Source: Entophlyctis helioformis (lineage: Eukaryota > Chytridiomycota > Chytridiomycetes > Chytridiales > Chytriomycetaceae). From it: DNA of 64,000 bases. Made by a program: the position numbers and the translations under genes. Positions 47,933 through 62,785 of this stretch are shown here, piece by piece. Under the pieces are notes generated by a model that was not told the DNA's origin, ran no database searches, and was given only the letters and a program-made list of their open reading frames with translations. The first letter of the stretch is position 1. Each line of letters starts with the position of its first letter. Location of the stretch: the NCBI GenBank assembly GCA_025526915.1, contig JAHLKH010000037.1:62001-126000 (forward strand). Reading direction: 5' to 3'.

Positions 47933-48059
47933 GGCCGATTTATTGGTAAAGTTTCAACCTGATATTCATACAATTACCAAGCGTTTTGGAATTAAATTCG
48001 ACCCGAGAGGCGTCGAAAAGATGCCCGTGTATCACACGATGGAAGGTTCGAGTCAGCAA

Positions 48060-48215
48060 TGAGCATGCGACGATAGGTGGGCGAGGCATACCAACGAGAT
48101 GCTCACCTTGCACCATTGTTTGAACAATGATGTGATAAGTGACCCGTTAGGTCGATCGGGAGGTGCCCCGATTCAAATAGTTGGTAGACGTAGAAGTCAG
48201 AGTGCCAAAGGCTTG
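48060..48215 (-). ncRNA. Candidate Fanzor guide RNA (omega/fRNA-like) region: three hairpins after the stop
   Basis: Directly 3' of the Fanzor stop, within 140 bases on the same strand, are three consecutive potential stem-loops: 48154-48173 (ATCGGG/CCCGAT, 6-nt loop), 48114-48129 (CATTGTT/AACAATG, a tight 7-bp stem) and 48076-48107 (GGTGGGC/GCTCACC with one G-T pair). TnpB and Fanzor guide RNAs are known to be encoded at or overlapping the 3' end of the nuclease gene and to be strongly folded. Position and structure fit, but no RNA evidence is available and the guide boundary cannot be set. The region is less GC-rich than its flanks. Confidence 0.45.
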
Positions 48216-51200
48216 TCATGCGAGACAACACATGGCTGGCAACCAGGCTTGGGCACGACTTGCACGCCGCTGGATGGCAGTATGCATTGCCTTGATGTCT
48301 GCAAGGTGCTCTGGCATGGCTGGATCGTCACTGGCTGGCGTGTGCGTCAAGTAGAGCGGACGGTGTCCAAAGAGCAGATGCCACAGTGCGACCATTCCGA
48401 TGTTGGTGGCTCCAAGCACGTCGCGGTGGTAGACGGTCGTGCATGGTATGCACTCGTAGCGTCGCAGGTTGGTGCGGTTCTCGTATGGGATGCGCTGCTT
48501 GCACTGCGGGCACATCTGGCTGGTCAGGTTCTCGTTGCAGCGGTAGATCTGTGTGTGTGTGTGTGTGTGTGCATGATCGTGTGTCAGTTGGTGCACAGAT
48601 GGATAGATGGATGGCATGGCATCAGACGCACATAGGCATATCCAGACGACCGCAGATGCCTGATGAGAAACTTCTCAAACACAGCGTGCCGACCACCTTG
48701 GCCTGTAAAGTCGATGCCAAATGCCCAGACAACGGGAATGTCCTTCTCTGTGTTGCCGACAGGGAGGCCTTGAGATGCAGCAGATGCGCGCTTGCCAGTG
48801 GTCGATCCTGCCAGCTTCATGATGCCCTCAAGAGCGTTTCCGCGAATTGACATGCTGTTGCTGTGCTTGGTGAACCGCTTGGCCTTGACCTTCTGTGGAA
48901 TGCCATGCCATGCCATGCCATCCAGTGTGATCAGCAGGCGATCAAGCAGCATGGCGGCCATGTCAATGGGCATCCAGAAGCAGAGAAAACGTACCCGTGC
49001 ATTCAGGAATGGCGTGCAGTACGCATGGCAGCGCAGATCCCAAAAGGCTCTCTCGCCTGCTGAGACGCCTGGGTCGGCATGCTTTGCTGTCTTGAATGCA
49101 ATGGCTGCCTGGACGTCAGCAGCCTTGGCAAGTCGGTCAGCAAACCTGGCACAAGAGGCAGGCACTGTGAGTTGATCTGGTCAAGAGTGCGCGTGGCAGA
49201 GTCATTGCATGCATACCAGTCCTGAAAGATGCGCTCAGCATGTGCCATGCCAGAGGAGAGCACGTAGTTGGACTCGAGCTTATACGAAAAGTCTCTGAGA
49301 TCGACCAAGATGCTGGACGCGCCATACAGGTACCGCTGGCCCCAATCAATGCCAACAATCCGCACAAACCGGTAGCCCTTGTTGGTGAACAACTTGTTGG
49401 CTTTGATGATGTCGCGCAGTCGCTGCGAGGCGTAAAAGTTGTGCTGGGCCTGTCATGCCATGGCATGAGTGAGGAATGCACAATGCATGTGCACCAATGC
49501 GCGAGTTTAGCATGCAAGTGGCTTACAGGATTGGTCGCTTTTGGCTTGGCGGCTGTGGATGGCATGTCAGTCGGTGCTGGTGCCAAGTGTGCGTCATAAT
49601 GGCACAGCAACTCACATGTGCCATCCATGTGATCATGCCCATCATGCCCATCATCATCAGAATCAGAATCATCATCATCAACAACCCACGGCTGCTGGCC
49701 TGAAGACACCAGATTGGAGCATGCAGATCAAGGCGGCAGTCAGAATCAATGTGTGCACCAAAGCATCCAAGCACGCCACATACACCAAGGTGACTCTGGA
49801 CGGTCTGTGCAGCCATCGAGAGCCAGTTGAAAGATGCTGTATCCATCCGTCCTGACGCTGCCTGTCAGGATTGCCTTGGCCCGTTTTGCTCGACGTGCCG
49901 CATCAATCGCAGCCTTGATATGCTTCTCACGCTCCTTGCCAATCAGACCCTGCTTGTCGGCCTCTTGCGTCGCCTTGGCTGTGGCCTTGGCAACCGCGTC
50001 CATCTCCACAAGAGTACCAACTCTGACCTTGATATGCTCCTCGCGCTCCTTGCCAACCAGACCCTGCTCGTCAGCCTCTTGCGTCGCCTTGGCTGTGGCC
50101 TTGGCAGCCGCGTCCATCTCATCTTTGGCTTGTGCAGGTGTCTGGAAGCAACCTTTCTTGGGGCGGAGGCCGGGAAGCAGGACGTCGAGAACACAGAGCT
50201 CTTGGCTTGCACTGAATGCGTCTTGGATCTTGCTATTGGGCGTCTTAAGCTCCAAGTCTTCATCTTTGTAGTCTTGGATAAAAGTGCAGTGTCAGCATCA
50301 TATCATACAAGCATGGCATAAACAAGTGCGACCTACTGAGTGCATCCAGAAGCTCCAGTCTCAAGTCTTTCAAAGCATCACTCTGCTTGCCATTCTTGCA
50401 CTCATCCGTGGTCCCCATTACCGCCCAAAAGAGGGTGGCCTCGGTAATGAGGATGAATGGGTCGCGGCTCGCCGCCTCAGGGCACAACTTGATTGTTGTG
50501 CCAACAGCAAGCTTGCACAGCTCGTAAAAGATCCTGATCTCTGAGAGTGACGCATTGCTCAAGATCGGCACAAGCACGTGCAATGCTTGCGGGATTGTAT
50601 CAAGACCGCCGTTGTCTGTGGCTGGCAGCATGCTGGGTGTCGCGGCCGCAGTGGTGGCCTTGTCCCTCCTGCGCCGTTGCCTCTTGGGTTTGGTGCTGTT
50701 GGTGGCTGATGAAGAGGTGGACCGGTCGTGCTTGAGACCCGAGGCAGGAGGGGCAGCGTCTTGAGCAGCGTCTAGTGAGGCGTCCTCAGTGGCCGGTGGT
50801 GTGGTTGATGCTGGCCCTTTGCGCCTTTGTTTCTTGCGCGTCGGTGGGCTTGGTGTGGCGACCTCGGCAGCAGTGCGTTTGGCATCCTCGGCGGCGGCAT
50901 GCTTGGCATCCTCGGCAGCCTTCTTAATGATCCCGATCCATCTGTCAACATCCTTGGCAGACGCACCCTGCACCAGGCTGTGAGCTGCATCAACCAACAG
51001 CTTGGACTGGTTGGTCATAAAATGGGTGGCCAGCATGCGGCCGACGTCGCGTGCAAGGTTGGTGTAGATGTTGTGCCTTGCTTTTGCACAAAGGCTGCTA
51101 TCAAGCCTGTAGGGCAGGACAGCCTCCAAAGTGTCCGTATGCACAGCGTCTGCCGTCGGTGCACTCTTCTGCATCAAGGCAGACAGCTTTGCATTCGCCT

Positions 51201-52095
51201 GCTCCACAGTTGACTTGAACTTATTGGCCTTGGTTGTCGCTGTCTGCTGCATGCGTGCTGTCCATGAGATTGACTTCCGTGTGCCTGCTTTCCACGTCGC
51301 TGCTTGCCGTGTGGTTTTCTGTGCTGTGGATGCCTGCTGTGTCGCGTCCACCTGCTCTGCCTTCCGTCTCCATGTCCGATGTATGATCAGCTGCATCACG
51401 GTGACGATCCAGCAGTGGACAGGGTACTTGATCGCATGCGGCTGGACCATCTTATCATCCGCCATGATGTATCCAATGTGATATAGCAGCATCTCCAAAG
51501 CACCCTCGCCACCAGACGTGCTGCTGGTGAGCGCCGTGAGCAGCTCATTTGCAGTTGGGACTGCTGGCGGCTGGGCGGCTGGCAATGATGCGCCGGCGCT
51601 GCTGGCTGCTGTTGCTGCTGTTGCTGCCACAGTCTGCGATGCATTTGCAAAGGTGCAGATCTCAAGCACCGTGCCATGCTCGAGAGGCACCAAACTGCCA
51701 TAGCGAGGGATCTTCATGTCGCTGCTATGTGGTCCTGTGCCATACATCAACCATGCATCGATGCGCTTTTCGAGGATGCACCTGCCCGTTGTCTGCATCG
51801 TGCCCTTGCCCTCGCCGAGGTCGTCTGGGTTGATGTAGTAGTATGTTTTCACACTGCCACTAGTGACTTGCATCATGCAGTAGTCAGGTGGCAGTGGCGC
51901 GTCTGGGCTGAGCTTGACAAGAACCTCGACTATCGCGCCGATCAACGCGAGGACAGCACACAAGAGGCCGGCTGTGTAATCGTACACCGTCAGGAGGGCG
52001 TCCTTTCTGACTGAAATGGCCGTCTGCTTGGCCAGTGGTGTCTTGGTATGGGTCCCAAAATACTTTGTATACTCTGGCTTGTTTGACAGCATCTC
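48216..52095 (-). CDS. Fanzor (eukaryotic TnpB-like RNA-guided nuclease) module, 8 exons
   Basis: Exons 52095-50337, 50272-49784, 49699-49616, 49552-49527, 49449-49217, 49145-48995, 48892-48632, 48548-48216 join in phase into ~1,110 residues. Numbering follows the full fused frame that starts at 61185. RuvC-I is VRIVGIDWGQRYLYGAS (Asp ~1637). The penultimate exon has AFGIDFTGQGGRHAVFEKFL. The last exon has NENLTSQMCPQC (Glu ~1823), a zinc ribbon (C1830, C1833, C1850, C1853) and HRDVLGATNI (Asp ~1860). Upstream is the ILTGSVRTDGYSIF segment seen in Fanzors. The large first exon is helical with two basic NLS-like clusters (RKKQRRKG, KPKRQRRRRDK). No stop or frameshift seen; nuclease residues look complete. 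It has no start codon of its own that I trust: its frame continues 5' into the XPG module. Confidence 0.85.
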
Positions 52096-54753
52096 CTGCT
52101 CATTTCACGAGTGCACCAGTCAGCCTCACAACACCAAGCATCCAGAGCAACATGGCAACCAAACCCCATACCGCCAGATCCACAATCATAACACGGCTGT
52201 TATGCTGTGCCTCATCCTCATCCTCATCCTTGCCCTTGCGCTTGCTCTTGCTCTTGCTCTTGCTCTTGCTGTTGATCTTGTCCTCATCCTTGTACTTTGG
52301 TGCTTTGCGATGATGCTGCACGTTTTTCTGACTGTCTGGTGTTTTGACTTTGAGGACCCCATTGACTGTCTGGACTGGCCCTGATGTCACGCAGCAATTG
52401 CCCGCAACATCCAGATGTGTCGCCCATCTATCATGATATTCGTGTCTACCAGCAGAATCCATGTCAGCAAGCACGATCAGGGCTCGCAGCATGCCATCTG
52501 CCACTTACGTGCTTGTCGTTGTTGGAGATGGGGCCTTCCGGTGGCGTCGCCCTGACTTCTTCTTGTTTTTCTTGATGGTATTCTTGGTCGCAGCCTTCTC
52601 AGCTCGCTCGGCATTCTCCTTTGCATGTGCAGCCTCTGTCTCCTCTGAGAATTGGAATGGCGCCTGCCGTGGTTGGATGCAGCATCAGGCATCCCTTCCT
52701 TGTGCACGCAACACAGTCACAATCACCAACAGTGCCCTGTAACCTACCGTCGTATTAGTGTCATCAAGTACACCAACGAGAAGTTTCTTACGGTTTGCTT
52801 GTTCAGGGCGATCGTTGTCAGATGACTTGGGCAGCGGTGGAGGAGGACCAGCCTGAGGAGTGGAATGATCAGCAATCGTGCCAAATCAGTACAGGCACAC
52901 ACCATCAGTGGAAGATGAGACGCACAGCGGCTTGCTCAATGACTTTCTGCAGCAGGGCAATGGCCGTTTGCCGCTGATTGACGAGTGTGATTGAATTGCC
53001 CTTGCTGATACGTCGATTCTTGAGGCCATTCAAGTCATTCAGCAGGTTTGTGGCCTCATCATGGATAACTGCAAACGTGTCTGCCGGCGCCACTCTTGTG
53101 CTGATCCGTCCGCGGTACTTGGTCTTCTTCTCGCCTGTATCTGCAATAGCACATTCAACAAAACGGCACTGTGAGTGGATTGCATCAACCATTTCAATGC
53201 AAGCAGAATATACTTGGAGTGGCTGTATGCCGGTGGGGGGCATTTTGTGGATGCACGATCTCATCCAGCTGCTTCTTCATTCTTGGAGCAACAGTCTGTC
53301 CAGGAGCAATGGATCGAGTCAGTCACATTCAAGATCAACAACCGTGTGTGATGCAAGAGCAACGGCATGCATCCAAGCCATGCAGCAACTTACAAAAGCA
53401 TGCCAAATCATCTGATCCGCCTTACTGAGCACCATGTAATCATCTGGCTCGATAGACTGCTCGCGCACAATCTGCAGCAACTGTGCACTAGCCGCCCTGC
53501 AGATGGCTGCAAGGATGTCACGGCTAGTGACTCCATCATACTTGCTTGCAAGGAGATCAACTGTTTGCTCTATGATGGCGTCCAATGCCACGTGGCAGCC
53601 ATTGACCTCCTTGAATGCCACATCCAGCCGCCTGCTGGCAACAATCCCATTGGCAAGCTGTTTGACACGATCGCTCGTCAAGTGGACAGGTGGGACGCCA
53701 GTCTTGGCTTGCTGCTGCTGCTGCTGCGCGGTATGGATCAAACAGCAACCAGGCGATGAGCATCTGCACAATAACAAGATCGCAGCATCAGAAACAGGAA
53801 AGCCATGTCAGTTTTTCCAGAAACACCACAGATGGCATGCATGCATACTTGGCTCCAGCCGAGGCTGTCACTTTGACATACATGTGGTTGGCATTGCCTT
53901 GTTGAGGCCCAGATCTGTGCAAGGCATGCAATCATGTCAATGCCAATATGTCCATAATATCCTTCAAGAATAGACTTGCCTCGCGACAATCGGGGCTGCA
54001 AACGTGCCAACTGGCGCTTTGGGCTCGATTTGGTCAACAAAGACTGAGAATGCGTTCTTGAACATTGGTATGAGGCTCTTGTCATGACTCTTGGCCAAGT
54101 CCTTGATGTACGCGTCCCTGAGGTCATACATGAACACCTTGGCCTCTTCAGGAGTCTTGAGTTTTCTATAGAGCTCGGCCTCCTTGCCATCCAACTTGGC
54201 CGCCTTGCGATCAAACCACGCATTAATGAACTTGGCAGCGGCCGTGATCCCTGAAGGCAATACAAGCAGAATCGTGCATGAAGACAACAAATGGCATGTG
54301 AGTCATGACAGACAACAAAACAGGCGCAGCAACTCACCATGGCGATTGCGGCCAAAAAAGTCTGTATGAGAAAACACTGCAACACCCTGACATGCACCGC
54401 GAAAATCCCGCACGCCCAATGCAGACGCGGTTGAGGCCATACCGCCATGGTTATATGAGCGAGGCTGGTTAAACCGCCCATGCTGCAAGTGGGTCACAAC
54501 GACACCACATTGACCAGCACAATGAGCAACCAGATCAGAGTCATTGGAGACAACAACGATTGGCTTGTCACTGTCACAAAATGGAGACTGTGAGCCATCA
54601 GTCACGGCAGAATGATCCAAGGCAATGTTACCTTGGCTCGCGAACATGGCGGGCAATGCATACATCAGCCTCATAGTCACACCAACAGACCGTGCATCCC
54701 TTATTTTCGCCAACAAGCTCGTTGAGGGCCGCAACAATGTGCTGTTTGTCGCT

Positions 54754-54758
54754 CTGCG
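54754..54758. repeat. Target-site duplication, left copy (CTGCG)
   Basis: CTGCG directly left of the 5' LTR; identical to 60567-60571 right of the 3' LTR. Keeping one copy restores the reading frame of exon 2 of the interrupted host gene. Confidence 0.95.
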
Positions 54759-55001
54759 TGTAACAGTCAGCCGCGATCACGTGACACGCGTGCAACCGGT
54801 CGCGCGTCCCACTTGAATCCTGACAGACCACAAGGCGACTTGCCCCAATCGTCGCCTTGTGTACTGAAACCCGCCGTCTGTCAGGTACTGCCCGTGCATA
54901 TGCCTTTATTACTACGAAGCTATACCAATGAATATCCTTGTGTACTGAAACCCGCCGTCTGTCAGACCGCCCATCGTCTCGTTGCACATCGTCCTGTTGC
55001 A
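54759..55001 (+). repeat. 5' LTR (243 bp, TGTAACA...TGTTGCA)
   Basis: Starts TG and ends CA. Same as the 3' LTR except one A/G difference (CCCCAATCG here) and an extra 81-bp block after GTCTGTCAG. The block ends in a second copy of a 30-bp segment (from CCTTGTGTACTGAAACCCG), so the LTR contains an internal direct repeat around AT-richer sequence. Confidence 0.95.
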
Positions 55002-55037
55002 CGACGACTCAAGACAGTCAGTGACCAGACGGAAGGA

Positions 55038-56690
55038 ATGACGACCGACAGCCTCAGTGCCGAGGGCACTGGTGCGGTCGGAGCAGGCAGCAGCATTGAA
55101 CAGCAACACCAGCAACACCAGCAAAACCAGACCGGCCTGCCAACACCCGTCACTGTCGTCCGCACTGTCACCAACTACCGCCTTGGCTCGAGCCTGGCAG
55201 AGGCGGCCATGAGGCTGCTCTTGAAGAGACCTGAGTTGATGGCCGAGATGCGAGACGCGGTGCCTGAGGGCGGCAGCCTGCTGCAGGATGGAGACATCCA
55301 ACCGGTCGCGGATTATGGGTCGCTCCTCGCCGCGCTGGGACATCGGGATTCTGCCATCCAGGATGAGGCGGCCTCGGTAGCAAGCTTGCAGTCGGTTCAC
55401 TCCTCAAGCGCCCAGTTCAACTCAGCGGTGTTTGCTGCTCACTCGTCTCTGGCTCGAGCACCCGCACCGTCGCGATCGCAATCCATCAGCATCAGTCAGC
55501 ACGGCACGATGGATCTACCGACGCCAGCGGCAGCCTCCGATGCCGCGCTGTTCCGCGCGCGGCAGACGGAGGCCGAGAATGACTTGAAGGAGCTCAGGTT
55601 CGACGGCGACCCAGCGGCCGATCCGCTGGGCAACGCCCGGGCCTGGCAAGTATTCACCCGCGCCCTGGAGAGCAGCATGGGCATTTGCCCGGCGCTCTAC
55701 AGGGAGGAACCTGTTCGCATTCGCATGTTAGAACGCTGCTTGAGGGGCTCTGCCCGAGAGTGGTTCTCCAACACTGTGATGCCGCGTGTCCAGGCGCGAG
55801 AGCTGCGTTCATTGGCCCAGGTCATTGAGGTGGGCAACCGCAGATACCGTCCGGCGCATCTCATCCAGCGTGCACAGCTCGTCATCGATCGTTTTATACC
55901 CGCACCTGGCGAGGCGTGTGCCCAGTGGGGCGATCGTCTCACGGCCCTGCAACGCGACGCCGACGCCTCGGACGCCGCGATGATCAAGAAGGCGTACTCG
56001 CTGTGCTCACAGGAGCTGAAGGCACGGATCGACATCTTGGAGGGTCCGGACGGTCTCGACGGCCCACAGACGTTTGCAGAATACCTGGAGCTGATCGAGA
56101 AGCTCGACGCCAACATGCGGTCCAAGGCCGAGTATGCCCAGGCGGCGGTTTTGACGGCCGCGGCACTCAATGGCACCCTGTCGACGCCATCTGCCAATGT
56201 GGGCTCAGGATCGGCTTCTGGAAGTGGACGCCGTCGCACGCAGACGGCTCCTGCACCGGCCAGAACGCCGCCGGCTCCAGTGACGATCCCAGCAGCGCCG
56301 AGGACGCAATCCGTGTCAGCCCCAGCAAACAGCGCCGGCCTGGCCAGCGAGTGGCAGGCGGTGATGTTGCGCGTTGGTCGACCGCTCTCAGAGGCGGACC
56401 GCGAGTTCCTGAAGGCCAACCACGGCTGCTACGCCTGCCGCCGACCCGATCACGCATCCATCAGGAACCCGGCATGCCCATTCCACCGCAGCGGCGGTGC
56501 ACCAGTCGCAGTCGCCAGTGTGGCCCCCCTAGTGATCATGGTTCGGGAACAGCTGACAATACATCTGTTACCCACTGCTCGTCTTTGCCCATGCCGCCGG
56601 TCCGCTCGCCTATCCGATCGCATGTCATGGCAACCGCCGATGGGTTCCCGTGCGTGGCCCTGCTGGACACCGGCGCATCTGGTATGGTGA
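55038..56690 (+). CDS. gag: Retrotransposon Gag
   Basis: 550 codons from the ATG at 55038. The N-terminus is Gln/Ser-rich. The capsid-like core runs from ~residue 180 ([50 protein letters not shown]), the usual gypsy retrotransposon Gag pattern. A degenerate zinc knuckle is near the end ([17 protein letters not shown]). Past a CCCCCC run at ~56525 the protease continues in the -1 frame, consistent with a programmed -1 shift or a single-base change. Confidence 0.85.
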
Positions 56691-59600
56691 TGTCGCGCAG
56701 TTTCGCGCGTCGGATTGGTGCACAGACCTGCGCCATTGAGCCGTTCACGGTCGAGTATGCCAACCAGGAGTGCCATCGCGTTGCGGAAGCGGTGACCATT
56801 ACCCTTGCGGTTGGGGACTACGCGCAGCAGCTGCAGTTCTTTGTCGCGGACATCAGCACCGATGTGATCCTGGGTACGCCGTGGTTTGCTGAGGTGGTGA
56901 TCACCAAGGGCGATATGGCCGACCGCTCGTTTGCATTCCACCACAAGGCCATGGGGCGCGATTTTGTATGGCATCTGCACCCCTCAGCGGCACCCACACT
57001 TGACCCGACACCCGAACCTGAACCGACACCCGAACCAGTACCCGAACCCGCATCCGAACCAGTACCCGAACCCGCATCCGAACCAGTACCCGAACCAGCA
57101 CCCGAACCAGTACCCGAACCAGCACCCGAACCAGCACCCGAACCACCCTGCGATCATGCTCCGATGTCCCTTGAGGCCATTGCTGCGCAGCATGGCATTG
57201 AGTTCGTCAGCTACGAGGATTTCCATGCGGACGAGTCATCATATGTCGAGATCATGGCCCTGACCAGCTGTGGGGACGCAGATACGGCAACCGACGCGGC
57301 CATTGCGGCGATTGACGAGGCGGATCCACTCGCCCATCTGAGCCTGGAGACGCAGCCGAGGTGGTCCATCCGCTGTTGATCCAGTTCCAGGACCTCTTCC
57401 AACCGGGCAACCTGCCGCCGTCGCGGCCTGAGGATCATTGCATCAAGTTGGTGCCTGGTTCCAAGCCGCCGCCACGCCGCCCTACGCGCAGCCTGCCGAC
57501 TGAGCACCAGGATGCTGTCAAGGCGTTCTTGGACGACCTTGCCGCGCGTGGCATGATCCGCGGCTCTGTGTCGCCGTTTGCTGCGGGTATCGTGATCGCC
57601 AAGAAGAAGGACGGCGGTCTGCGTCTGTGCATTGACTATCGTGGGTTGAACAACATCACGGTCAAGGATCACGCGTCGATGCCCAGTATCCAGTCGCTCA
57701 TTGACCGCGTGCGGGCAAGCCGTTCATGTCGTCGGTTGATCTGCGGGACGGCTACTACAACATCCGCATCTACGACGAAGACATCCCCAAGACGGCGTTT
57801 GTGACCCGTTACGGCCACTACGAGTTCAAGGTGATGCCTTTTGGGCTCTGCAACGCTCCGCCACCTTCAACGCCATGATGAACCGCATCTTCCACGACCT
57901 GCTGGACGTCTACGTTGTCGCCTACATGGACGACATCCTGATCTACTCGGAGACCGAGGCAGACCACCTGCTGCACCTGGAGGAAGTGTTCCGTCGTCTG
58001 CGCGCTGAATCGCTCCGCCTGAAGATGTCCAAGTGCGAGTTCTTCTCGTCGCGGCTCGAGTTCTGCGGTCATCTGTTGCTGGGTGACGGCTACTCGATCC
58101 AGGACAAGCATCGGCTGGCACTGAAGACTCGGCCGATCATTGGGTCGGTTGGCGATCTGCGACGCTTCATTGGGCAAGTCGTGTGGGTCAAGGATTTCAT
58201 CAAAGACCACGCCGACATCTGTGTGCCGCTCACAGACATGCTGCGCAAGGACGTGCCCTTTGTGATGGACGAGGCCAAGTGGGCCATTGTGGACTTTATT
58301 CTGGACGCCATCACGAACGCTCCGGTGCTCAAGTACTTTGACCCGTCGCTGGAGACGCACGTGTACACGGACGCATCCGAGTTTGCCATTGGGGCTGGGT
58401 TGGCCAGAAGCATGTCGATGCGGACGGCACGGCCAAGATCCATCCGGTCTCGTTCTACTCGCGCAAGCTCAACGATGCGGAACGCAACTACCCGACCCAC
58501 GAGCGCGAGATGCTGGCGATCGTGGACACCTGCGACAAGTACCGGCACTACCTGCTCAGCGTGCATTTCACCATCCACACCGACCATGCATCGCTGCGCT
58601 GGATCTCGACGCAGCCCAAGCTGTCGTACCGCCAGGCTCGCTGGATCATGGAGCTGCAAGAGTTTGATGCTGTGGTCCAGTACATCCAGGGGGGCGACAA
58701 CAACCTGGCTGACATGCTGTCGCGCCATGTGACTGTTGCTCCACACTGCGCTCGATGCCGTGCAAAGGTTGAAGTGGATGCCTTGACCACCGCAACACCC
58801 GACATTGCCGACCGCGTTCGCCCGCTGTTGCTGCCGACCCGTTCCTGCTCAACGTCGCTCGCTGGAAGGCCGATCCTGCTGATGCTGCTCTGCACGAGCG
58901 TCAGTTGGCCGCCAAGCTCGAGCTGGTCGACGGCCTGTGGTTCTACGAGGGTCGCATGTACATCCCGGAGGGTCAAGTGCGCACCGACCTGCTCACCTCG
59001 TACCACGAGCCGGCCCATGCGGCCACCAGGGCCGCGAACGAACACACGGCCGTCTGCGTGCGCACTACTACTGGCCGGACATGGCTGCGTCGGTCGGCCG
59101 CTTTGTGGGCTCGTGCGACGCCTGCCAGCGGTTCAACTCGTCGACGCAGGCGCCTGCCGGTCTGCTGCACCCGCTGCCCATCCCTGCCGACCGCTTCCAG
59201 TCTGTGGCGTGCGACATTGCCTTCATGCCCATGTCGGACGAGGGCAACGATGCTGTGTTTGTTGTTGTGGATCGCCTGACAAAGCTTGTCAAGTGCGTGC
59301 CGACGCGACGCGATGCGACTGCCGAGGATCTTGCCGCGCTGTTCCTCAACCGATGGGTGCTTGCTGGCCACGGCCTGCCGTCGTCTATCGTCTCGGACCG
59401 GACGCTCGCTTCCTGTCTGCCTTCTGGACGGCGCTCTGTGCGGCGCTGGACATTGAGCAAGTCATGGCAACGGCCCGCCACCAGGAGACCGACGGCCAGT
59501 CCGAACGCACCATCCGCACGCTCAAGGACCTGCTGTCCAAGTACGCCAACCACCGCGGCAGCAACTGGGAGCACATGCTCGATGCGGCTGTCCACGCCCT

Positions 59601-60462
59601 CAACTCTGCTCCAAGCGCATCGACTGGCTATGCTCCGTACTTCCTCGCCTTTGGCCTCGAGCCTCGCACGCTGCCACACGAGCCGGCAGCATCGTCACCG
59701 CCTGCTGTCCACGACCTGCTCGCTGCCATTGACAAGGCTCGCGTGGATGCCACAGCCAACCTGACCAAGGCTCAAGAACGACAGAAGTGCAACGCCGATC
59801 GCCACCGCCGTGATGCTCCTGCCTACGCTGTCGGCGACATGGTCATGCTGCAAGCCGCCGGCATTGTGTGGCCCACCGACACGCATCGCCCCAATGCGTT
59901 CCTGCCCAACTGGCTGGGTCCATTCCCGATCACAGAGGTCAATGCCGCACTGGATGGTCTCAACTGCAAGCTAGCTCTGCATCCAACCATGCATCGTCTG
60001 CATCCGTGGTTCCACGTCCGTCTGCTGAAGCCGTACCGCGATCCGGCCGCTGCTTTCCCTGGCCGGCCACTGCCTGCTCAGCCACCTGCAGTTGCCTTTG
60101 CTGATGACCCGGCAGCAGCTGAATGGGAGATTGACGCGATTGTTGGACACAAGGTCGCTCGCAACGGCCACCGCTCCTTTGTGGTCTCGTACCTCGGTTA
60201 CGGCCCGCAACACAACGAGTACCGCTCAGAGGCCGAGTTGCGCGAGACTGCACCTGATCTGCTGGACCAGTACCTCGCTGCCCTCCCAGCACAGCCGCCG
60301 GTCCATCGCAGCCGCCGCCACGCTGGGGATGCATTGGACGTGAATGTGGCTTCCTTCTTTGTCTGTGCCGATTGTTCTCCAGAGGATCCCTCGTCAAGGG
60401 GGGCTGTAACAGTCAGCCGCGATCACGTGACACGCGTGCAACCGGTCGCGCGTCCCACTTGA
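56531..60462 (+). pseudogene. pol: Retrotransposon pol (PR-RT-RH-IN-chromodomain), frameshifted
   Basis: Protease has the active site ALLDTGASG; a Pro-Glu repeat ([11 protein letters not shown]) separates it from RT. RT shows [30 protein letters not shown] and AYMDDILIYSE; RNase H shows VYTDASEFAIGAG and HTDHASLRW. Integrase has an HHCC-like start (HYYWPDMAASVG, SCDACQRFNS) and the DDE core (DRLTKLVKC, ARHQETDGQSERTIRTLK). The C-terminus has a chromodomain (EWEIDAIVGHKV, FVVSYLGYG). The frame is broken at about 57350, 57715, 57862, 58407, 58835, 59035 and 59397; most look like loss of one base in a short G or C run. The last frame runs into the 3' LTR. Confidence 0.9.
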
Positions 60463-60566
60463 ATCCTGACAGACCACAAGGCGACTTGCCCCAGTCGTCG
60501 CCTTGTGTACTGAAACCCGCCGTCTGTCAGACCGCCCATCGTCTCGTTGCACATCGTCCTGTTGCA
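60405..60566 (+). repeat. 3' LTR (162 bp)
   Basis: TGTAACA...TGTTGCA, identical to the 5' LTR apart from one substitution and absence of the 81-bp block. Preceded by the polypurine tract and followed by CTGCG. Confidence 0.95.
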
Positions 60567-60571
60567 CTGCG
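60567..60571. repeat. Target-site duplication, right copy (CTGCG)
   Basis: Matches 54754-54758. Together they define the empty site inside exon 2 of the minus-strand gene. Confidence 0.95.
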
Positions 60572-60987
60572 TCAATGTGAAAAATCGGCCGAGAGCATGG
60601 GTCTCCTTTCTGAGTGACCAACAGCAGAAGATGGTTAGTAAGGCAGCCACACAGTAGAGAGTAGCAAACCTACTTGGTCATCAACCCAATCTGCTTGTAT
60701 TCTTGACGGCGGAACGCATACCGCAGGACCTTGACCGCTGCATGCAGCATCTTGAGTGCGCGGTGTCGGTGCTCGATCTTTATACCTGCGTCTCCAAGGC
60801 AACCATCGACGTGGAATTTGATGGTGTGGCCGTCGCCGACCGACGCCATGAACAGCTCGATGGCCGGCTTGACGATGGCCTTCCAGGCATCCTTGGAGTC
60901 GGGCAAGCTGAACGATGCTGTGGCAATGAGCTGCGAGTAGAATACGCTTAGCACGTCAATGTGTAACATGCTGCTGATGAAGTCGTC

Positions 60988-60990
60988 TGT

Positions 60991-61055
<65 letters not shown>

Positions 61056-61060
61056 TTGCT
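60988..61060. repeat. (GTTGCT)n hexanucleotide microsatellite in coding sequence
   Basis: About eleven copies of a hexamer in exon 1 of the XPG module, read on the minus strand as an alternating Ala-Thr tract. Length change is in units of two codons, so the frame is kept. Confidence 0.9.
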
Positions 61061-61185
61061 GGTCGCTGTTGCTGCAGTGTGCTGTGGACCACGTGCTGCA
61101 CGACCTGGCTGAGTGCTGTGCCAGCAATGTAGAGCCAGACGGCACAGCCTAGCTTGAGCATTCTCAAGTAGCCGCGGACCGTCAT

Positions 61186-62690
61186 GTTGCGTGGTGCTGG
61201 TGCGTGGGATGGGGCGTGTGTGTGTGTGTGTGAGTGTGTGTATCTGTTTGTTTGCGGGCAAACACGGCGCGTTCCAAAGTGGCGCGCTTTGATCAGATCT
61301 GATGGGCGGAGTTGAACTTTTCATTGCATGAAAACAGAGAGCGAGCCGATAGAGAGCGAGCATCCAGGCACTCGCCGTCCACTGCCCAACAGCCATCAAG
61401 GGAGCAACGAGCACAGCCAACAGCCAGGCATTCAAGATGCGGTTCTGTGTTGCTGGCACAGTCATTGATGAGATGCCACTCAGTGCGCAGCTTGACATGC
61501 ACTGTGCAGCATCACTCTGCGTGTCATGAGCTGCATTGCAGCGAGCCTCTCTCCGAGTAGCATCTTCTCAGTCAATGTCCCATTGCATCCAACAAGCGTC
61601 CTGATATGCATCTGCATTGTGACCCAGTGCGATGCAGTTGGTGTTGCCTGACTGGCCAGCTGGTCCATGGACAGGTTGGTTGTTGACGCACTGCCTGCAT
61701 CGCCCCTCTGCTCTGGATCGTCCTTGCCAACAAACACAGTGCATGCAAGACTTGGATAGTCAGGATCGTCGCCATCATCATCGTCGTTGTGGTTGTTGAA
61801 TGGATCGAGAGTGCTTGGTCTGTCTGTCTGGCCACTCCAGTTGCTGCTCAGTGGATCGCATCCAAGATGCCATCGCACCAAGTGCAATGTGGCCAGACAC
61901 GCCTGCCAGCACTCGCGTCCTCCTCACCAGTCTCGTCTGGATCAGTGTCGCCGAGTGTGCCGCTCGTTGAGTGTGCTGCCCCTGCCGAGTTTGGCGTCCA
62001 AGTCGGCATGCCAATCCAGCTGCCCAGCAAGCAGTTCCTGCAGCCAACTCCAAGGATCGGTCCATTGAGCACGTCTCAGTGGCTGCTCATCTGCTGCTGC
62101 TGCATCCCATGTCGCAGTCGGAAAGCACCAGGCAGCTCGGTCCTGCGATGCCAGTGCTCTCGCTGTCCTCTTGAACAACAACCAGATCGCCCTGTTCACG
62201 GCCGTCTTGCCAACGTCTCTTGTTGCTGTTTGGAGCCATCAGACATGCACGCAGTCAGTGCCAAGCCCACACAGACACGGCCGTCAGACTGCTGTGCCGT
62301 CGTCATCAAGTGGCAATGGAGCATGCCTGGACAGACAGCGAGTCAACGCACCTGCTCGCCTGTCTGCAGCCTGCCTTCTGTCCGCCCGCCTTGTTGGGCA
62401 CGCCTCTCAGACGGCCACGACCACGCTGCTCTGCTGGATGGCCTGCTGGACTGCCTGCTGCATGCCACCTTGAGCAGTGAGCCTCGCTGTCTCCCCTGAA
62501 GGACTCGGCCAGCAAGCGAGTGCTATCCCATATCCGTGCTGTCGCCTGCGTCGTCGTCGCTGTCGTTGGATTCGTTGTTGCTTGTGTGCAGTTGGGCGGC
62601 AAGTGCAGCAGCGTCTGGATCTGGCATGGCGCGTTGCTGCTGTGCTCGCATCGCGCAGTGTCTGCACCACGCAAGGGCTCTCTAGATCGG
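61186..62690. other. No confident gene; possible minus-strand exons
   Basis: 1.5 kb between the XPG start and the XDH promoter. It has a (GT)n run at ~61217-61245. On the minus strand several segments look coding but I could not link them: 62625-62527 (MPDPDAAALAAQLHTSNN), around 62230-62110 (SNKRRWQDGREQGDLVVVQE), around 62000-61915 and 61800-61510 (DPDYPSLACTVFVGKDD). Together they could be a small gene divergent from XDH, rich in Asp/Ser. Confidence 0.35.
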
Positions 62691-62740
62691 CCAATCACAG
62701 CGATTCCACCAGGATTGACCAATCACAGCGATTCCACCAG
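62691..62740. promoter_or_regulatory. Two perfect 22-bp repeats with CCAAT box upstream of XDH
   Basis: Copies at 62691-62712 and 62719-62740 begin CCAATCACAGCGATTCC and are identical; starts are 28 bp apart. They end 45 bases before the XDH ATG. CCAAT at this distance fits binding by a CCAAT-binding (HAP/NF-Y) complex, which is inference. Confidence 0.6.
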
Positions 62741-62785
62741 GGGTAATGGTATGAGAACTGGGCCCAGTTTCAACCTGATCGACAA

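Follow-up and report, generated by a model that had tools for sequence, protein, structure and literature searches.

A DNA window of 64,000 nucleotides from the chytrid Entophlyctis helioformis (C37:62001-126000 of a 29.6 Mb genome in 482 contigs) carries a copy of an inverted-repeat transposon, the only recognisable gene of which is predicted to encode a single protein that combines a 5' nuclease of the EXO1/FEN1 type with a Fanzor-like, RNA-guided one. On balance, this joint reading, including the mode of working proposed below, is considered probable. The fused gene had been described in an earlier note on the same DNA, which overlooked that this stretch belongs to a repeated, inverted-end element present in other copies as well. 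Copies are named here after the contigs of the E. helioformis genome (C6, C35, C239 etc.).

The element belongs to a family of inverted-repeat DNA transposons of ∼9 kb. Its limits (47958-62763) were set by alignment of sister copies, the flanks of which are unrelated from copy to copy, and the inverted ends and target duplication that define a terminal inverted repeat (TIR) DNA transposon are both present. The left TIR, on the Fanzor side (47958-47981, plus strand), ends exactly where sister copies with different flanks end, and the right TIR lies at 62740-62763 (minus strand); the two repeats are imperfect, with 18 of 22 bases agreeing when compared by hand, and the window copy is without the leading GG of the left repeat found in sister copies. 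The identical 8 bp AGTTTCAA lies on either side, at 47950-47957 and 62766-62773. Target duplications are also 8 bp in C138, C102 and C6, agree at seven of eight bases in C35 and are longer in C5a (9 bp) and C219 (11 bp). Allowing up to three mismatches, the right-end pattern has 84 matches in the genome and the left-end pattern 190, with none for either reversed control. Pairing of 100 of the 190 left ends with all 84 right ends gave at least 45 end pairs, of which 30 span 7.2-9.8 kb, three are short and 12 are longer. Among the matches listed, 41 of the 45 pairs enclose a match to TNB, the Pfam zinc-ribbon family of the Fanzor part, and three of the other four a nuclease match, C215 being the only pair without either module; the family is therefore not a mixture of different contents. 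A 1.2 kb probe from the middle of the region 48216-61185 matched 68 places in the genome, with 14 copies at 94-100% including its own, and roughly 80 to 200 recognisable copies of the family are present.

The N-terminal 5' nuclease and the Fanzor part are best read as one spliced protein, predicted to arise from a single transcript; the fusion proposed in the earlier note is upheld in this form by matched introns and by the co-occurrence of the modules. Introns were compared in six diverged copies (C6, C35, C239, C26, C1 and C144). Those at C6 residues 166, 221, 299, 416, 540, 567, 637 and 672 recur with matched places and phases, although C1 and C144 show shifts of at most a few residues and C26 has 409 instead of 416. 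Several introns of the Fanzor half recur as well. With the C26 protein as the query, the same places are obtained. Three introns (637, 672 and 723) sit between the halves, the last of which is found in C6, its near copies, C35 and C1, is shifted in C144 and is not modelled in C239 and C26. The acceptor, donor and phases of joining exon 52748-52852 are matched in all six subfamily copies with either of two query proteins, except that one query places the acceptor further on in C1. Furthermore, in 47 of the 67 nuclease loci among the matches listed (191 matches in all), a same-strand TNB place follows 2.5-16 kb downstream, compared with one locus each for the upstream same-strand and downstream opposite-strand controls; the modules are thus not always separate genes. 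No downstream same-strand TNB place was found for the other 20 loci among the matches listed, of which C7, C24 and C60 lie in complete end pairs and C9 lies within a few kb of a contig end.

An arrangement of two genes per element, with an upstream nuclease, a downstream Fanzor and joining exons that are used only sometimes, would explain the short deposited gene models and the TGA at 52905, which lies inside intron 637 and would come into frame on intron retention, likewise in C239. However, this stop is missing from C35 and C144, and the joining introns are phase-matched in six of six copies, for which reasons separate genes are judged quite unlikely. No shared ATG before the Fanzor part was seen in the inspected stretches of the compared copies.

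The window gene lies on the minus strand, and its start (61185) and stop (about 48216) were both recovered as first claimed. The claimed 19 exons and 1,928 codons did not hold: spliced alignment, in which the two sides of a long terminal repeat (LTR) retrotransposon insertion were kept apart, gave 2 + 21 pieces with one in-frame stop. The stop falls in the doubtful piece 53849-53961, which we think is mis-drawn because the deposited gene model of a sister copy splices differently there; how the exon that separates the nuclease from the second module should be drawn is uncertain. The unaltered genomic sequence of C6 reads as a single frame of 1,835 residues over 21 exons, with no stops or frameshifts, and it also stays open with the C239 or C35 protein as the guide (21 or 22 exons). 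C138 is likewise open, bringing the open copies to two of the ten modelled. The deposited protein P0001 is identical to the C239 model in two stretches, one of 314 and one of 116 residues. The retrotransposon insertion claimed in the second exon was confirmed: a Ty3/gypsy-type LTR element with a chromodomain (54759-60567, plus strand), with direct repeats that are 99% and 100% alike and Pfam matches to protease, reverse transcriptase, RNase H and chromodomain, splits exon 2 of the fused gene, and it is absent from the matching place in nine of ten aligned sister copies, the tenth of which does not reach the site. The retrotransposon is recent and contains an array of 12-bp units at 56974-57177.

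The nuclease module begins with the first exon (60674-61185), which holds the IDV and HVDG motifs, followed by the two parts of the interrupted exon 2 (60570-60609 and 54632-54711, the latter with CDYEAD), an exon with NDSD and the HTDFF aspartate (54338-54570) and a last exon (54012-54250). The acidic motifs listed in the earlier note (IDV, HVDG, YEAD and NDSD) are therefore all present in the gene model, and the EAD/DSD exon junction is spliced alike in six of six deposited proteins. Asp73, Asp123, Glu209, Asp211, Asp232, Asp234 and Asp292 (C6 numbering: D73, D123, E209, D211, D232, D234 and D292), and also D128, are invariant in all six copies; we take the first seven to be equivalent to the active-site residues of FEN1. 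Pfam XPG_I_2 is the top match in five of the six copy modules (E 2.7e-4 to 0.099) and in all six deposited proteins (E 1.9e-4 to 0.014), with a best score of 21.5 bits that does not reach the curated cut-off of 24.2. The predicted structures have a 5'-nuclease fold: their top Foldseek matches are EXO1 (E 5.2e-4 and 3.0e-4), and 49 of 50 rows of the VIA list, which hardly probes model residues past 251, are EXO1, FEN1, XRN, GEN1 or 5' nucleases of bacteria, phages or plastids. The XPG/FEN1 label is supported by this fold, with EXO1 as the nearest relative, and by the weak Pfam matches. An hhalign comparison with an XPG_I_2 protein of the same genome gave E 0.0069 at a probability of 5.5%, confined to the EAD/DSD stretch, and a comparison with the XPG of that genome gave nothing useful. 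A search of the whole genome with PF12813, exon by exon, found three places, none of them at a listed element, and so missed the elements.

Between the nuclease and the Fanzor core lie a second conserved module (52926-53763; exons 53394-53763, 53214-53295 and 52926-53134), the joining exons (52748-52852, the lysine-rich 52509-52663 and 52130-52445, the last two drawn from spliced alignment and intron comparison) and two long conserved exons (50337-52077; 50950-52077 and 50337-50862); neither the second module nor the long exons match a Pfam family. The Fanzor half continues with two exons that hold the TDG motif described for the Fanzor1 WED domain (49786-50257; 50022-50257 and 49786-49973), a small exon the flanking introns of which recur in most copies (49527-49552), the exon with RuvC-I (49274-49443), a piece with uncertain boundaries that is drawn otherwise in some copies (49146-49176), two further RuvC exons (48995-49090 and 48632-48892) and a last exon with RuvC-III and the TNB zinc ribbon (48219-48548). 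All of these exons are on the minus strand. The claimed Fanzor zinc ribbon is borne out by Pfam TNB (PF07282), which matches the window exon at E 2.8e-9 and scores 37.4-41.7 bits against a cut-off of 26.3. The profile check suggested earlier thus returned TNB above its cut-off and XPG_I_2 as a top match below its own. The Fanzor1 motif is D-X(125,275)-[TS][TS]-XX-C4 zinc finger-X(5,50)-RD (PMC3627910), and C6 contains it when checked by hand (D1569, TSQMC from 1734, last C at 1761, KTVYH, RD). Fanzors also have an alternative glutamate six residues before the zinc finger and a TDG motif (PMC10711439); the former is found in six of six copies and the latter in five, C144 being without that stretch. 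NCBIfam TnpB models match the Fanzor end alone, at E 2.4e-7, and the score of 30.4 bits falls short of their cut-off of 100. All 150 of the TNB places scored in the genome, from 205 candidates, exceed the cut-off. This 29.6 Mb genome thus holds a large Fanzor-like expansion.

To judge from the divergence between copies, the gene is under purifying selection in several subfamilies and in both of its halves. In Nei-Gojobori estimates for 11 copy pairs, one of which is saturated in the pre-RuvC region, the ratio of nonsynonymous to synonymous divergence (dN/dS) is 0.22-0.35 in the nuclease, 0.25-0.47 in the second module, 0.20-0.43 in the long middle region and 0.20-0.58 in RuvC-TNB; the joining region, at 0.32-0.95, is the least constrained. 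Between subfamilies, dS is 0.10-0.25 in RuvC-TNB versus 0.63-2.4 in the nuclease (3.6- to 17-fold), with several values above 1 near saturation, whereas the relation is reversed in near copies (nuclease 0.05-0.09, RuvC-TNB 0.10-0.16). The last ∼2 kb, including introns and the element end, show 78-90% nucleotide identity, compared with mostly 64-77% in the rest of the gene. The Fanzor end has therefore undergone exchange or conversion between subfamilies. At the right end, C6, C35, C239 and C24 are also 80-95% alike; in the same comparison only ∼105 bp of this end are shared by C26, and nothing by C1 or C144. Between C6 and C35, the right end (window 61186-62763) is 88-95% alike and the adjoining gene 54-83% in 300-bp steps until the Fanzor end is reached. 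The likeness of these two right ends suggests conversion or a shared cis function.

Behind the Fanzor stop, the 3' non-coding end (47982-48215, minus strand) contains long invariant runs across 12 copies and is the proposed guide-RNA scaffold; Rfam gave nothing at the gathering level on this stretch. For TnpB-like enzymes, it is commonly proposed that the empty site is cut and that recombination then copies the element in. Fanzors are RNA-guided, and guide RNAs that extend past the element end and the duplication are reported (PMC10432273, PMC10711439). In the mechanism proposed here, transcription of the element's 3' end, behind the Fanzor stop, would yield a guide RNA, the guide portion of which would come from flanking DNA as reported for other Fanzors. 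The Fanzor half would then cut the matching empty site on the homologue or sister chromosome and leave broken ends for the fused 5' nuclease to resect or trim, with flap trimming as an alternative. Repair would copy the element back in, so that it is retained in place, and the guide-proximal end would spread from copy to copy. Recombinational repair of this kind is compatible with the exchange tract at the guide end but not proven by it. A bolder version, in which the one protein is a self-sufficient RNA-guided homing machine, with Fanzor cutting the empty site and the EXO1-like nuclease resecting and thereby forcing copy-in, would have left its trace in the 4- to 17-fold lower silent divergence at the guide end; we regard it as possible, if rather doubtful.

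A number of observations weigh against the reading of the element as a carrier of a working fused, RNA-guided enzyme. Frameshifts occur in eight of the ten modelled copies, with one stop each in C26 and C1 as well, and the aligner behind the gene models avoids or penalises stops, so that the open frame in C6 alone is weak proof and the matched introns are the stronger evidence. All six of the deposited proteins that were found end before the Fanzor part. Regarding the nuclease, Pfam support was weaker with an earlier, shorter drawing of exon 2, the structure models are poor (mean predicted local distance difference test scores of 46.9 and 56.3), the template-modelling scores of the EXO1 matches are low (0.21-0.35), and a sequence-profile search of solved structures returned neither FEN1 nor Fanzor and nothing relevant for either half. 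RuvC-I reads DWG in all five copies that have the exon, and not the DPG termed near exclusive for Fanzor1 (PMC10711439), for which reason the enzyme is named Fanzor1-like. A structured guide RNA found no support: the folding energy was reached by 34 of 200 column-shuffled alignments, and neither covariation nor stability spoke for it. Finally, close subfamilies resemble one another at the right end too, so that conversion is not confined to the guide end.

To be excised and inserted with 8-bp duplications, the element would depend on a DDE transposase, probably one supplied from elsewhere in the genome. Such duplications are compatible with the KDZ, hAT, IS4 and MULE-type superfamilies, and their regularity is typical of DDE enzymes. 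The scanned gene models contain no Pfam transposase at E up to 1 and no KDZ domain, which speaks against an autonomous KDZ element. KDZ-type transposase remnants lie elsewhere in the genome, at C334:6404-7253, C271:9823-10062 and C396:222-449. C334 has a right-type end (three mismatches), the element of which points away from the KDZ place, and C396 has a left-type end, with its KDZ fragment ∼10 kb inside. These remnants are a possible trans source of the 8-bp duplications. The fused protein might then be a passenger, irrelevant to the movement and retention of a non-autonomous TIR transposon that is served by an unlinked DDE transposase of the KDZ, hAT, IS4 or MULE type. The size of the duplications, the scanned models and the KDZ remnants would all suit this explanation, as would the published occurrence of Fanzor1 in transposase-less MuDr-like elements of fungi, which have 9-bp duplications, and in an IS4 element, the duplications of which are 8 bp long (PMC3627910). 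However, purifying selection on the gene in several subfamilies and the unmixed content of the family, in which C215 alone among the 45 pairs is without both modules, make it unlikely.

The element might instead encode its own excision enzyme, through either the N-terminal module, one of only two nucleases recognised, or a site hidden in the middle region, and transpose by a route that involves no known DDE domain. Immediately before RuvC, seven acids are invariant in five copies (C144 excluded), and this region may conceal an active site; only one such acid each is present in the second module, in the join and in the first half of the middle region. To our knowledge, no 5' nuclease carries out strand transfer, and with the regular 8-bp duplications this makes such an enzyme highly improbable.

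The right-end region (61186-62739) has no coding signal on either strand; a gene in this 1.5 kb was rejected, the gene-finder scores being 43 and 48 compared with 39 for the opposite strand of the rest. Repeated CCAATCACAGCGATTCCACCAGGAT-like units, the number of which varies among copies, adjoin the right TIR at window ∼62600-62745; for the window copy, they are missing from the Tandem Repeats Finder output. A copy at C24:41500-48900 keeps the Fanzor half without most of the nuclease and second module and is possibly a Fanzor-only derivative.

In protein searches with the Fanzor part, 7,996 and 1,256 candidates were scored, none at E 0.001; the nuclease profile found six proteins among 7,997 candidates, all from E. 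helioformis. Viral contigs gave no match to either profile and prokaryote genomes none to the Fanzor profile. With EXO1, FEN1 and XPG the N-terminal module shares the seven conserved acids, the predicted fold and the EAD and DSD motifs, but its similarity lies below the Pfam cut-off and it belongs to a transposon protein fused to Fanzor. Academ (AcademX) elements are also DNA transposons that carry an XPG-type nuclease, but they have a transposase of their own, make duplications of 3-4 bp and are not known to contain a Fanzor; by this description the present element, with duplications of mostly 8 bp, does not belong to them. SPu-1 of Spizellomyces punctatus (SpuFz1) is likewise a chytrid TIR element with a Fanzor gene and TNB zinc ribbon, and the alternative glutamate and TDG motif are shared with Fanzors (PMC10711439). 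However, SPu-1 is ∼2.1 kb in length, with one 633-residue open reading frame and putative TA duplications (PMC3627910), whereas the present element has ∼9 kb, about 20 exons, ∼1,800 residues, 8-bp duplications, DWG for DPG and a fused 5' nuclease. In PGv-1 Mariner, a second nuclease (GIY-YIG) travels with Fanzor1 in one transposon, but as a separate protein of another fold beside a Mariner transposase (PMC3627910). Both a nuclease gene beside Fanzor and the presence of Fanzor in TIR elements that make duplications of 8 or 9 bp are therefore known; the predicted fusion of Fanzor to an XPG/EXO1-type nuclease would be new, in agreement with the earlier statement that no such fusion is described, none having been found in the literature searched, in part by titles and opening lines of abstracts, which covers few subscription papers and no dedicated preprint collection.

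Fanzors are known as lone transposon-borne RNA-guided nucleases, and why elements keep them is an open question. Here, the prediction is of a Fanzor joined covalently to a nuclease that processes DNA ends, in a family with many diverged copies under selection. Should the fusion be functional, RNA-guided cutting and end resection would be linked in nature, and the family would offer a eukaryotic test of copy-in retention and suggest a compact cutter-plus-resectase for genome engineering.

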